Assembly: GCF_026898135.2 (NCBI RefSeq) | Contig: NZ_CP114035.2 | Span: 1,343,501 to 1,407,500 of the forward strand | Length of the DNA stretch: 64,000 bases | Origin: Pseudomonas fortuita | GTDB lineage: Bacteria > Pseudomonadota > Gammaproteobacteria > Pseudomonadales > Pseudomonadaceae | Reading direction: 5' to 3' | Part shown: positions 190 through 46,671 of the stretch, one piece after another | Numbering within the stretch: the first letter of the stretch is position 1 | How the letters are laid out: each line of letters begins with the position of its first letter | Made by a program: the position numbers and the translations under genes | Notes under the pieces: model-generated | The model's database searches: none | What the model saw: only the letters and a program-made list of their open reading frames with translations | What the model was told of the DNA's origin: nothing

Positions 190-210
190 GTGCACCGGGA
201 TGGGCTGATG

Positions 211-227
211 TGCACCCCGGTTGTGCA
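211..227. promoter_or_regulatory. Candidate NtrC enhancer site upstream of nirB
   Basis: TGCACC-N5-TGTGCA matches the NtrC consensus TGCACC-N5-GGTGCA at 11 of 12 defined positions. A second TGCACC half-site begins at 191, 20 bp away, with a poor partner half. The site lies about 145 bp upstream of the start expected from the sigma-54 promoter at 338-353, a usual distance for an enhancer. Binding is inferred. Confidence 0.6.
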
Positions 228-242
228 TTTTGATCGCCTGTG

Positions 243-320
243 GGGCCCCTTCGCAGCACAAGGCTGCTCCTGCAGGGATCGCGTGCTCCTGTAGGAGCAG
301 CCCTGTGCTGTGAAGAGGCC
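243..320. repeat. REP doublet (REPIN)
   Basis: Two imperfectly inverted REP units, each with GGAGCAGCC-type cores and GGCC ends, lie between the upstream reductase and nirB. The REPIN sits between the candidate NtrC enhancer and the sigma-54 promoter, so it may act as spacer DNA and as a 3' hairpin for the upstream message. Confidence 0.75.
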
Positions 321-337
321 GGTACAGGCAAAGCAAT

Positions 338-353
338 TGGCACATTCCCTGCT
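338..353 (+). promoter_or_regulatory. Sigma-54 (-24/-12) promoter of nirBD
   Basis: TGGCAC-N5-CTGCT has the invariant GG (339-340) and GC (351-352) separated by exactly 10 bp, and differs from TGGCAC-N5-TTGCW only at the first base of the -12 box. Transcription would start near 363-364, just before the leader hairpins. Nitrate and nitrite assimilation is commonly under NtrC/sigma-54 control in pseudomonads, and a candidate NtrC site lies upstream. Confidence 0.7.
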
Positions 354-371
354 TTACCTCCACTACAACAA

Positions 372-463
372 GCCCCACTGATCAACGGCGATCAACCTGG
401 GGGCACACCGTGATGAATACAGGCAAAGGCGCCTGGAGCTTCGGCTCCAGGCGCTTTTTTTTT
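372..463 (+). promoter_or_regulatory. ANTAR-type antitermination leader of nirBD
   Basis: Two small hairpins precede an intrinsic terminator. P1 is TGATC/GATCA (379-394) closing the hexaloop AACGGC, with an outer GCCCC/GGGGC clamp (372-376 with 400-404). P2 is CAGGC/GCCTG (420-435) closing the hexaloop AAAGGC. Both loops have A at position 1 and G at position 4, the signature of RNA targets of ANTAR proteins such as NasR and NasT. The 3' arm of P2 (431-435) is also part of the 5' arm of the terminator (428-455), so P2 and the terminator exclude each other. The likely partner is NasT, which is not in this window. Confidence 0.8.
428..463 (+). terminator. Leader terminator upstream of nirB
   Basis: An 11-bp GC-rich stem (429-439 with 444-454, plus a G-U pair) is capped by a stable cUUCGg tetraloop and followed by nine T residues (455-463). 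It ends 16 nt before the nirB ATG. It would stop transcription unless the upstream P2 hairpin forms. Confidence 0.9.
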
Positions 464-479
464 GATCGAGGATCGGCTT

Positions 480-3032
480 ATGAAGGCAACAGCGAGCAGC
501 GGGCAACGAGAGCGACTGGTCATCGTCGGCAACGGCATGGTCGGCCACCATTGCGTCGAACAACTGGTCAGCCGCGGCGCCCTGCAGCGCTTCGAGGTGC
601 GGGTGTTCGGCGAAGAGCGCCAACGTGCCTACGACCGTGTGCACCTTTCCGAGTACTTCGGCGGCAGCTGTGCCGAGACCCTGGCCCTGTGCGAACACGA
701 GTTCTACCCCGCCAACGGCGTGCACTTGCACCTCGGTGAGGCCGTGCTGGAAATCGACCGTGAGCGCTGCGAGGTCGTCACCGCCGAGGGGCGCTATGGC
801 TACGACCAACTGGTCCTTGCCACCGGCTCCTACCCGTTCGTGCCGCCGATCGAAGGCTCCAGTGGCAATGCCCGCCTGGTCTACCGTACCCTCGACGACC
901 TCGATGGCATTCGCGCCGCAGCCGCTGGTGCCCGCCGTGGCGTGGTGGTCGGTGGTGGCCTGCTCGGCCTGGAGGCCGCCAATGCGCTCAAGTCGCTGGG
1001 CCTGGAAGCCCACGTGGTGGAATTTGCCCCACGGCTGATGCCGGTTCAGCTGGACGGCGAGGGCGGTGCCGCGCTCAAGGCACAGATCGAAGCGCTGGGC
1101 GTTGGCGTGCACCTGTCGCGCGCCACCCAGTCGATCAGCACCGGTGAAGCATTCCGCTACCGCATGAACTTCGACGGTGGCGAGCACCTGGAAACCGACC
1201 TGATCGTGTTCTCCGCCGGTATCCGCCCACAGGATGCCCTGGGCCGTGGCTGCGGCCTGGATATCGCTGTGCGCGGTGGCGTGGTAATCGACAACCACTG
1301 CCGCAGCAGCGACCCGCGCATCTTCGCCATTGGCGAGTGCGCGTCCTGGAACGGCAGCGTGTTCGGCCTGGTCGCCCCCGGCTACAGCATGGCGCGCAAC
1401 CTGGCCGCATTACTGATGGGGGAGGCGGCGGTAGCGTTCACCGGCGCGGACATGTCGACCAAACTCAAGCTGCTGGGCGTGGATGTCGGCTCGATCGGCG
1501 ATGCCCATGGCGCCACCGCCGGTTCACGCAGCTACCGCTTCATCGACGAAGCCAACAGCGCCTACCGCCGGCTGGTGGTGGACGCCAGCGGCAAGCACGT
1601 GCTCGGCGCGGTGCTGGTCGGCGACAACACGTATTACGACACCCTCTTGCAGTACGCCCAGAACGGTATTGCCCTGCCAGCCGACCCTGCAGCGCTGATC
1701 CTGCCCCAAGGCGGTGGTGCACCGGCCCTTGGCGCCGATGCGCTGCCCGATAGCGCAACCATCTGCTCGTGCCACAACGTCAGCAAGGGCGCGGTGTGCG
1801 CGGCCATCGACAGCGGCTGCAGCGACCTTGCTGCGGTCAAAGGCTGCACCAAGGCCGCCAGCGGCTGTGGTGGTTGCGCGGCCTTGCTCAAGCAAGTGTT
1901 CGAGCACGAACTGACCGCCCGCGGCGTAGCGGTGGACAAAAGCCTGTGCGAGCATTTTACCTACACCCGTCAGGAACTGTACGGGCTGGTGCGGGTGGAG
2001 GGCATCCGCACCTACAGCGAGCTGCTCGAACGCCACGGCAAGGGCCACGTTGGCTGTGACATCTGCAAGCCGGCGGTGGGCAACATCCTCGCCTCGTGCT
2101 GGAACCAGCCGATCATGGACCCCGCGCTGGTGCCGTTGCAGGATACCAACGACACCTTCATGGCCAACATGCAGAAGAACGGCACCTACTCGGTAGTGCC
2201 GCGCATTCCCGGGGGTGAAATCACCCCCGACAAGCTCATCGTCATCGGCCAGGTGGCCAAAAAATATGACCTGTACACCAAGATCACCGGCGGCCAGCGC
2301 ATTGACCTGTTCGGTGCCCAGTTGCACGAACTGCCGCTGATCTGGGGCGAGCTGATCGACGCAGGCTTCGAAACCGGCCATGCCTACGGCAAGTCGACCC
2401 GCACGGTGAAATCCTGCGTGGGCAGCACCTGGTGCCGTTACGGCGTGCAGGACAGCGTTGCCATGGCCCTGCGCCTGGAAGACCGCTACAAGGGCCTGCG
2501 CAGCCCCCACAAGCTCAAGTTTGCAGTGTCGGGCTGCACCCGCGAATGCGCCGAGGCGCAGAGCAAGGACATCGGCGTGATCGCCACCGACAAGGGCTGG
2601 AACCTGTACGTGTGTGGCAACGGCGGTATGCGCCCACGGCATGCCGAACTGTTTGCCACCGACCTGGACGACGAAACCCTGGTGCGGCTGATCGACCGCG
2701 TGTTGATGTTTTACATCCGCACGGCCGACAAGCTGCAGCGCACCTCGGTGTGGCGCGAAAACCTGGATGGCGGGCTGGGCTACCTGAAGCAGGTGATCAT
2801 CGACGACAGCCTGGGCCTGGCCAGCGAGCTGGAAGCGCAGATGCAGCATGTGGTCGACCAGTACGAGTGCGAATGGGCCAACGCGCTCAACGACCCGGAG
2901 AAGCTCAAGCGCTTTCGCACTTTCGTCAATGACCGGCGTGCCGACCCCGACGTGCACTTTGTGCGCGAACGCGAACAACGCCGGCCCGCTGCACCGCTGC
3001 ACCTCATTGCTACTGTCGAGGAGGCTGTCTGA
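480..3032 (+). CDS. nirB: Assimilatory nitrite reductase [NAD(P)H], large subunit
   Basis: This 850-residue cytoplasmic enzyme reduces nitrite to ammonium with six electrons from NAD(P)H. The order is an FAD-binding Rossmann motif (VIVGNGMVG from residue 14), a second nucleotide-binding motif (VVVGGGLLGLEAANAL), a BFD-like [2Fe-2S] domain (CSCHNVSKG and GCTKAASGCGGC), and the sirohaem/[4Fe-4S] domain with C-x5-C (CVGSTWC) and C-x3-C (CTREC). The ATG at 480 is chosen because GAGGA lies at 468-472. The frame opens at a TTG at 462, but that codon falls in the terminator U-run. The gene overlaps nirD by one base and is controlled by the sigma-54 promoter and ANTAR leader described above. Confidence 0.96.
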   Translation: MKATASSGQRERLVIVGNGMVGHHCVEQLVSRGALQRFEVRVFGEERQRAYDRVHLSEYFGGSCAETLALCEHEFYPANGVHLHLGEAVLEIDRERCEVVTAEGRYGYDQLVLATGSYPFVPPIEGSSGNARLVYRTLDDLDGIRAAAAGARRGVVVGGGLLGLEAANALKSLGLEAHVVEFAPRLMPVQLDGEGGAALKAQIEALGVGVHLSRATQSISTGEAFRYRMNFDGGEHLETDLIVFSAGIRPQDALGRGCGLDIAVRGGVVIDNHCRSSDPRIFAIGECASWNGSVFGLVAPGYSMARNLAALLMGEAAVAFTGADMSTKLKLLGVDVGSIGDAHGATAGSRSYRFIDEANSAYRRLVVDASGKHVLGAVLVGDNTYYDTLLQYAQNGIALPADPAALILPQGGGAPALGADALPDSATICSCHNVSKGAVCAAIDSGCSDLAAVKGCTKAASGCGGCAALLKQVFEHELTARGVAVDKSLCEHFTYTRQELYGLVRVEGIRTYSELLERHGKGHVGCDICKPAVGNILASCWNQPIMDPALVPLQDTNDTFMANMQKNGTYSVVPRIPGGEITPDKLIVIGQVAKKYDLYTKITGGQRIDLFGAQLHELPLIWGELIDAGFETGHAYGKSTRTVKSCVGSTWCRYGVQDSVAMALRLEDRYKGLRSPHKLKFAVSGCTRECAEAQSKDIGVIATDKGWNLYVCGNGGMRPRHAELFATDLDDETLVRLIDRVLMFYIRTADKLQRTSVWRENLDGGLGYLKQVIIDDSLGLASELEAQMQHVVDQYECEWANALNDPEKLKRFRTFVNDRRADPDVHFVREREQRRPAAPLHLIATVEEAV

Positions 3033-3394
3033 TGAACCTGTCCAATGCTGCTGTGAAAACCCACGCGAACTGGCAAGCGGTGTGCCTGGCACAAGACCTG
3101 GTGCCCGACTCTGGGGTGGTAGTGTGGCTGGACGGGGCCCAAGTGGCGCTGTTCTACCTGCCGGGGCAGGCGCAGCCGCTGTATGCGGTGGACAACCGTG
3201 ACCCGCGGTCCGGTGCCAACATCATCGGCCGCGGGCTGGTGGGCAGTGTGCAGGGCGAGCTGGTGGTCGCAGCGCCGTTGTACAAGCAGCATTTCAGCCT
3301 GCAGACCGGGGAGTGCCTGGAGGATGGCGGGCAGAGGTTGCGGGTGTGGCCGGTGCGCTTGAACGGTGAGGCTGTGGAGTTGGCGGTGGGCTGA
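3032..3394 (+). CDS. nirD: Nitrite reductase [NAD(P)H], small subunit
   Basis: A 120-residue NirD protein. It has the Rieske-like fold of the family but, as usual for NirD, none of the Cys/His ligands of a true Rieske cluster. Recognisable family stretches are ALFYLPG, YAVDNRDP, GRGLVG and APLYKQHFSLQTGECL. Its ATG shares one base with the TGA of nirB, so translation is coupled, and the product forms a complex with NirB. A large palindrome follows at 3437-3486. Confidence 0.95.
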   Translation: MNLSNAAVKTHANWQAVCLAQDLVPDSGVVVWLDGAQVALFYLPGQAQPLYAVDNRDPRSGANIIGRGLVGSVQGELVVAAPLYKQHFSLQTGECLEDGGQRLRVWPVRLNGEAVELAVG

Positions 3395-45177: not shown

Positions 45178-46671
45178 ATGTTCGAATCCGCCGAAATCGG
45201 CCACAGCATCGACAAGGAGGCTTACGACGCCGAGGTACCCGCTTTGCGCGAGGCCCTGCTCGAAGCCCAGTACGAACTCAAGCAGCAGGCGCGCTTCCCG
45301 GTGATCGTGCTGATCAACGGCATCGAAGGCGCCGGCAAGGGTGAGACGGTAAAACTGCTCAACGAGTGGATGGACCCGCGCATGATCGACGTGCTCACCT
45401 TCGACCAGCAGACCGACGAAGAGCTGGCCCGCCCGCCCGCCTGGCGCTACTGGCGGGCTTTGCCACCCAAGGGGCGGATGGGCGTGTTCTTTGGCAACTG
45501 GTACAGCCAGATGCTGCAGGGGCGGGTGCACGGGGTGTTCAAGGATGCCGTGCTTGATCAGGCCATCATGGGCGCCGAGCGCCTGGAGCAGATGCTGTGC
45601 GATGAAGGTGCACTGATCATCAAGTTCTGGTTCCACCTGTCCAAGAAGCAGATGAAGGCCCGGTTGAAGTCGCTCAAGGACGACCCGCTGCACAGCTGGA
45701 AGATCAGCCCGCTGGACTGGCAGCAGTCGCAAACCTACGACCGCTTCGTGCGCTTTGGCGAGCGCGTACTGCGCCGCACCAGCCGCGATTATGCGCCGTG
45801 GCATATCGTTGAAGGCGTAGACCCGAACTACCGCAGCCTGGCGGTGGGGCGTATCTTGCTGGACAGCCTGCAAGCCGCGCTGGCCAACAACCCCAAGGGC
45901 AAGCACCAGGGCAACGTGGCACCGCTGGGCCGCAGTATCGACCAGCGCAGCCTGCTCGGCGCCCTGGACATGACGTTGCGCCTGGACAAGGCTGACTATC
46001 AGGAGCAGTTGGTCACCGAACAGGCCCGCCTGGCCGGCCTGCTGCGCGACAAGCGCATGCGCCGGCACGCCCTGGTGGCGGTGTTCGAAGGCAACGATGC
46101 TGCCGGCAAGGGCAGTGCCATCCGCCGCGTGGCGGCGGCGCTGGACCCGCGCCAGTACCGCATCGTGCCGATTGCCGCGCCCACCGAGGAAGAGCGCGCG
46201 CAGCCCTACCTGTGGCGGTTCTGGCGGCATATTCCAGCACGCGGCAAGTTCACCATCTTCGATCGCTCCTGGTATGGCCGGGTGCTGGTGGAACGGGTGG
46301 AAGGCTTTTGCAGCCCGGCGGACTGGATGCGCGCCTACAGTGAGATCAACGACTTTGAAGAACAGTTGGTGAATGCCGGCGTGGTGGTGGTGAAGTTCTG
46401 GCTGGCGATCGACCAGCAGACCCAGCTGGAGCGCTTTCAGGAGCGTGAGCAAATCCCGTTCAAGCGCTACAAGATCACCGAGGACGATTGGCGCAACCGC
46501 GACAAGTGGGACGACTACACCCAGGCGGTGGGCGATATGGTCGACCGGACCAGCAGCGAAATTGCGCCCTGGACGCTGGTGGAGGCCAACGACAAGCGCT
46601 GGGCGCGAGTGAAGGTGCTGCGCACTATCAATGAGGCGCTGGAGGCAGCGTTTGCCAAGCACAAGAAATAG
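45178..46671 (+). CDS. pap: Polyphosphate:AMP phosphotransferase (double-domain PPK2)
   Basis: A 497-residue protein with two tandem PPK2 domains. The first has a P-loop at INGIEGAGKGETV (residues about 47-59) but the second, FEGNDAAGKGSAIRRVA with DRSWYGRVLVERVEGF, is nearer the catalytic consensus. The double-domain class II enzymes make ADP from AMP and polyphosphate. GAAGGAG precedes the ATG. A 58-nt perfect palindrome follows the stop. Confidence 0.93.
   Translation: MFESAEIGHSIDKEAYDAEVPALREALLEAQYELKQQARFPVIVLINGIEGAGKGETVKLLNEWMDPRMIDVLTFDQQTDEELARPPAWRYWRALPPKGRMGVFFGNWYSQMLQGRVHGVFKDAVLDQAIMGAERLEQMLCDEGALIIKFWFHLSKKQMKARLKSLKDDPLHSWKISPLDWQQSQTYDRFVRFGERVLRRTSRDYAPWHIVEGVDPNYRSLAVGRILLDSLQAALANNPKGKHQGNVAPLGRSIDQRSLLGALDMTLRLDKADYQEQLVTEQARLAGLLRDKRMRRHALVAVFEGNDAAGKGSAIRRVAAALDPRQYRIVPIAAPTEEERAQPYLWRFWRHIPARGKFTIFDRSWYGRVLVERVEGFCSPADWMRAYSEINDFEEQLVNAGVVVVKFWLAIDQQTQLERFQEREQIPFKRYKITEDDWRNRDKWDDYTQAVGDMVDRTSSEIAPWTLVEANDKRWARVKVLRTINEALEAAFAKHKK

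Follow-up and report, generated by a model that had tools for sequence, protein, structure and literature searches.

A highly probable NalA-type leader, with NtrC/sigma-54 start and NasT antitermination predicted, upstream of nirBD in a Pseudomonas putida-group bacterium

The region between nasA and nirB

What controls the nirBD operon at a locus where a promoter motif, two RNA hairpins and a terminator precede nirB? In the window, i.e. the whole stretch of 64,000 nucleotides that was analysed, nirB (480-3032; nitrite reductase large subunit, TIGR02374, 1048 bits) and nirD (3032-3394; small subunit, TIGR02378, 98.6 bits) follow, on the same + strand, the 3' end of nasA (1-189), which codes for a fusion of nitrate reductase with flavodoxin/FAD/NAD reductase domains and whose entire gene lies at G000:C1:1339664-1343689. 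Of the 80 loci retained, those of P. hunanensis and Pseudomonas sp. LB-090624 come closest over the first 300 residues of NirB (96 percent each). The leader stands directly upstream of nirBD, the place required of a NalA-type nirBD leader in Pseudomonas. We consider it highly probable that it is such a leader, the transcription of which would be started by NtrC and sigma-54 and carried into the operon by NasT antitermination.

The motif scan places an NtrC-like site, TGCACC-N5-TGTGCA, exactly where the original prediction had put it, at 211-227 (+ strand, 11/12 consensus letters). It also reveals a second one that had been overlooked, at 191-207 (+ strand, 8/12 letters), exactly 20 bp upstream of the first. 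The GG-N10-GC promoter formerly drawn at 338-353 is indeed present, as an exact match to the sigma-54 -24/-12 motif on the + strand within TGGCACATTCCCTGC (GG at 339-340, GC at 351-352), but it ends one base earlier, at 352; transcription is predicted to start near 363. At the scale of the window neither motif is unusual when taken alone, which counts against the NalA-type reading: allowing at most one mismatch, there is 1 NtrC-like site vs 0.64 expected, and there are 21 promoter-like sites (two exact) vs 24.4 expected. The other exact -24/-12 match, at 46106-46120, was rejected, as two long open frames that overlap each other both cover it.

The RNA part is of another kind. Two hexaloop hairpins with A at the first and G at the fourth loop position (A1/G4) had been claimed, and were found on the + strand with five perfect closing pairs each: P1 (379-394; loop AACGGC at 384-389, lower stem 372-376/400-404) and P2, the putative antiterminator (420-435; loop AAAGGC at 425-430). 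The UUCG-capped terminator said to overlap the second hairpin is there as well (425-463, + strand): its 15-bp hairpin (425-458, core 429-454), followed by a U-tract at 455-463, shares bases with P2, so that the two are mutually exclusive. A search of both strands of the 64 kb for this combination, a pair of A1/G4 hexaloops of which the second is overlapped by a terminator, gives a single match, and 0/3000 dinucleotide shuffles of the 403 bases contain it; it is unusual with respect to chance. The leader also folds better than all of its shuffles (z-score -6.2, 0/200 folding as well). When the RNA ends at 436 or 440, P1 plus P2 is the best predicted fold; at full length the terminator is favoured by about 15 kcal/mol (-44.2 vs -29.3 kcal/mol when P1 and P2 are imposed). 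Termination is therefore the predicted default; to pass, the transcript would need an RNA-binding protein that holds P2. The two hairpins, the terminator overlapping P2 and a cognate ANTAR protein in the genome, NasT, are among the features that characterize an ANTAR dual-hexaloop RNA.

Conservation of the leader and its promoter among relatives

At nirB, the relatives have kept the promoter, the hairpins and the terminator. The P2 core is found in 77/80 nirB loci; it is missing from two with little upstream DNA (L056, L081) and from that of Halopseudomonas bauzanensis (L082), whose nirB has no visible leader and whose genome yielded no ANTAR protein. The latter nirB has a -24/-12-like motif close to its start codon. 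A strict automatic parse recovers the full architecture in 52/80 loci, a count into which L040 and L041 enter through a different hairpin, one overlapping the promoter. We aligned 67 leaders, the window and 66 of 75 distinct ones, nine having been excluded by eye beforehand (L040, L041, L047, L062, L065, L066, L069, L070, L075): within this selection A1 is invariant in both loops (67/67), and G4 is present in 66/67 for P1, with one gap, and in 67/67 for P2. An A1/G4 hairpin was later detected in four of the excluded leaders, L062, L066, L070 and L075. Without any selection, an A1/G4 hexaloop closed by at least 4 perfect pairs and at most 70 nt upstream of P2 exists in 65/78 cases (77 leaders and the window), and 38/800 coding segments pass the same test. 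The 13/78 leaders where this strict rule finds no canonical P1, L047, L065 and L069 among them, count against the NalA-type reading. Four nirB leaders (L066, L075, L190, L191) have three A1/G4 hexaloop hairpins instead of two.

The stems vary in a compensatory way. In P1, 4/5 pairs are changed on both sides, a count reached by 10/500 shuffles, and the covariation score is reached by 0/500; in the terminator of the relatives' nirB leaders 4/11 pairs are changed on both sides. Related sequences enter these measures repeatedly, so that none of the figures is a probability.

The -24/-12 promoter keeps its place upstream of the leader, as expected for a NalA-type nirBD leader: a match lies 84-92 nt upstream of the hairpin-2 loop in 41/77 relatives' loci and at another distance in 14/77, the remaining 22/77 having none within 150 nt (13 of these 22 are Stutzerimonas). 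For the NtrC-like pair we retained the 44 loci, window included, which among 78 show a promoter match and in which the end of nasA can also be recognised. A gap of 20 bp is the best among gaps of 14-30 in 35/44 of them; the pair score of the window is reached by 0/200 mononucleotide shuffles. At six of the 44 the score is reached by at least 24/200 shuffles, so that no pair is evident there.

NtrC itself is encoded in the genome (profile match, 791 bits). Could another activator drive the sigma-54 promoter, the antitermination part being unchanged? Many other proteins match the NtrC model below cut-off; the region upstream of narK, which has a similar leader, shows no conspicuous NtrC-like site; and PMC3973561 describes for P. 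protegens a NalA homologue at which NtrC motifs were not found, a report that also counts against the NalA-type reading as a whole. The recurrent tandem pair at nirB, on the other hand, and the NtrC dependence reported for orthologs (PMC12830290) speak for NtrC, and make another activator improbable.

The space between the NtrC-like sites and the promoter is occupied here by a REPIN-like inverted repeat with two REP-like arms (244-320, no strand), which had likewise been overlooked. REP doublets forming hairpins are described as REPINs (PMC3116915). Matches to microRNA families obtained at 242-323 by the Rfam search were rejected, as they arise from this palindrome. Such a repeat fills the gap in 19/44 nirB loci, where the proximal NtrC-like site is 107-189 bp from the GG; in the other 25 the distance is 32-132 bp, 62-64 in nine of them, some of these distances resting on weak pairs. 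A regular helical phase of this spacing was looked for by eye across the 44 loci and not seen. The repeat also simply follows the 3' end of nasA, and elements of this kind may be common at such a place. Our literature search found no paper joining REPIN, NtrC and sigma54.

NasT, its candidate targets and the relatives with NasR

NasT, made of a receiver and an ANTAR domain, is the sole ANTAR protein found in the genome; its gene adjoins a NasS-like gene and that of a narK-like transporter. The five residues through which NasT of P. putida contacts c-di-GMP are all present in it. A protein phosphatase 2C–protein kinase fusion is encoded beside narK and nasST (L009:2683-4353, minus strand).

Two further leaders of the same layout, first spotted by eye, precede nasA (L007:6040-6139; core G000:C1:1339547-1339596), with a sigma-54-like promoter, dual hexaloops and a REP-like palindrome upstream, and narK (L009:5603-5699, minus strand; core G000:C1:1741142-1741191). 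A model built from nirB leaders only, R1, run over the window, L007 and L009, gives the narK leader 15.6 bits (E 0.012) and the nasA leader 15.4 bits (E 0.014); as it gives 18.7 bits to the reverse strand of the nirB leader, above both, R1 alone is weak support for them. Genome-wide, with 150 of 5881 candidates scored, R1 has neither among the matches listed. It is thus conservation in relatives that carries the claim for these two leaders, and not R1: the nasA leader is present in 17/19 related loci and the narK leader in 29/30. Two of the three missing cases failed because a contig end cuts the locus and upsets the offset; the second model, R2, finds a leader in both (G002:C26:44-87 and G035:C308:209-253). 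The third, at nasA of G043, shows on inspection by eye two variant loops, GATGCC and AACGGT. R2 contains the nasA and narK leaders of the present genome, so that its matches to them are by construction; with 150 of 3857 candidates scored genome-wide, it gives no fourth site with a score near theirs, the next one being at E 0.016.

These leaders are not strictly identical to that of nirB. A GG-N10-GC match precedes 17/17 nasA leaders and 15/29 narK leaders; in the nasA leaders, G replaces A1 of P2 in 3/17 and an A-C mismatch interrupts the P2 stem in 17/17. Between the nirB, nasA and narK leaders both sides of P2 differ in 3/5 pairs, a number that is not exceptional (reached by 428/500 shuffles), while the P2 covariation score across the three types exceeds 500/500 shuffles. 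This points to a single NasT acting on three leaders in the genome. Several leaders per NasT would not be new in principle, NasT hairpins being reported upstream of several genes in Bradyrhizobium (PMC6759348). A literature search by title, outside which Romeo 2012 and Nie 2024 remained, gave no paper devoted to the Pseudomonas nasA or narK leaders. In genome G013 a leader-model match (L196:4523-4585, minus strand, E 2.4e-7) lies upstream of a gene of the formate/nitrite transporter family, possibly a further target.

Among 59 genomes of the genus, NasT is found in 53 and a leader match (E up to 0.001) in 51, many of these matches being by construction since R2 was built partly from leaders of the same genomes. 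Both occur together in 49/53 NasT genomes; the 4/53 where no match to the leader model was obtained count against the NalA-type reading. The weaker matches L190, L191, L195, L198 and L189, identified by the N-termini, as well as L192, L193 and one of the two in L196, identified by family search, are nirB leaders with long linkers.

Of the six genomes in which NasT was not found, three have an NIT-ANTAR protein of the NasR type (G001, G018, G043), one has two ANTAR matches (G051), and two, G003 and G037, have none. The nirB leader is kept in G018 and G043; the match in G043 is by construction, because its own leader (L050) is part of R2, that in G018 is not. G001 gave no leader match. In the genomes of L050 and L083 the NasR-type regulators (L185, L201) adjoin an NMT1-like, i.e. 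nitrate-transporter-like, gene, NasT is not among the ANTAR matches, and the nirB leader is kept with its A1/G4 loops. In those of L040 and L041 the one ANTAR protein found is again a NasR-type NIT-ANTAR; there the P1 hairpin is kept (within 2378-2436) with the loop CCACAT replacing A1/G4. Given L050 and L083, this loop change is not strictly tied to NasR.

The original prediction proposed that nitrogen limitation starts the transcript and that nitrate or nitrite lets it pass the terminator. This is now supported by the conserved elements, by the presence of the NasT, NasS-like and NtrC genes and by the mechanism reported for the orthologous NalA. The elements, their conservation and covariation, and the NasT and NtrC genes are observations; the regulation itself is proposed by analogy with the published orthologs, from homology and motifs. 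When nitrogen is limiting, phosphorylated NtrC sitting on the tandem sites (191-227) would activate sigma-54 RNA polymerase at 338-352, and the leader transcript would begin near 363. With neither nitrate nor nitrite, NasS would hold NasT, the 15-bp terminator would form and transcription would stop near 463. When either is present, free NasT would bind the P1 and P2 hexaloops; the P2 so held would make the 5' arm of the terminator unavailable, and transcription would proceed into nirBD.

The same RNA might be read otherwise, as mainly a trans-acting small RNA whose product is the terminated transcript, readthrough being secondary. The Rfam family that it matches, RF00625 (P11), is catalogued as a small RNA gene, and so strong a terminator would yield a discrete RNA of about 100 nt. 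The P11 match is full-length (326-455, promoter boxes included; 37 bits, E 8.6e-6), below the gathering score of 70. This counts against the NalA-type reading, but the shortfall is one model's score threshold and no biological feature: what it lowers is the claim of P11 membership under Rfam's rule, and the orthology is unaffected. In the genome, with 150 of 301 candidates scored, a second P11 match (G000:C1:3924841-3924978, 29.4 bits) falls within an open reading frame and was set aside as a chance match; three weaker matches accompany it. The hexaloops and the exclusivity of P2 and terminator, conserved directly upstream of nirB and also before nasA and narK, are what cis control predicts; we thus regard a mainly trans-acting RNA as very improbable, a trans role on top of cis control being something that the leader may have. 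It is just as hard to believe that most nirBD expression comes from transcripts reading through from nasA, the terminator merely ending the nasA transcript: nasA certainly ends at 189, in the same direction and about 290 bases upstream of nirB, yet a conserved -24/-12 promoter separates the two genes, and a hairpin pair, of which P1 shows covariation, is needless for plain termination.

Retaining the NalA-type reading, we can look at the hexaloop leader more broadly, as a stable module in changing surroundings, a view that we hold about as readily as we doubt it. Here one NasT would serve the nirBD, nasA and narK leaders; in other Pseudomonas NasR (NIT-ANTAR) is present, NasT is not found and the nirB leader is kept, with the P1 loop CCACAT in two related genomes; and in the putida group REPINs would have inserted between NtrC sites and promoter, a separation that DNA looping apparently tolerates. 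A leader kept with NasT in some genomes and NasR in others would offer a natural test of the RNA features that an ANTAR protein requires, and the REPIN spacer one of the enhancer-promoter distance.

Comparison with known systems

The leader is the NalA leader known from P. aeruginosa and P. putida: the system is already known and looks ordinary for the relatives. The mechanism is summarised in a review of 2026 (PMC12830290), which cites Nie 2024 for P. putida and Romeo 2012 for P. aeruginosa. According to it, nalA of the orthologs is started by sigma-54 and NtrC, NasT binds NalA, NasS holds NasT when nitrate or nitrite is missing, and c-di-GMP weakens the binding of NasT. As described there and in PMC3973561, the known leader shares with ours the position upstream of nirBD and the terminator before nirB; it also shares the sigma-54/NtrC start and NasT antitermination, which here are deduced from homology and motifs. 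Our comparison supports the NalA switch as widespread among Pseudomonas relatives.

The present locus differs from the known leader in two respects. The first is the REPIN-like palindrome that here separates the NtrC-like sites from the promoter. The second is the place of the nitrate reductase gene, which in P. aeruginosa is PA1779. By a paper title, the P. aeruginosa operon is nirBD-PA1779-cobA, whereas here nasA is separate, upstream, with a leader of its own. What we add to the known system is thus the nasA and narK leaders, the REPIN-like palindrome, and the NasR relatives that keep the nirB leader with no NasT detected.

At last, the leader resembles the ANTAR dual-hexaloop antiterminators, i.e. 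eut with EutV, nasF with NasR and amiE with AmiR, both by its two A1/G4 hexaloop hairpins and by the exclusivity of P2 and terminator, as described in PMC3369931 and PMC8934654. It differs from all three by its regulator, which here would be NasT in place of EutV, NasR or AmiR.
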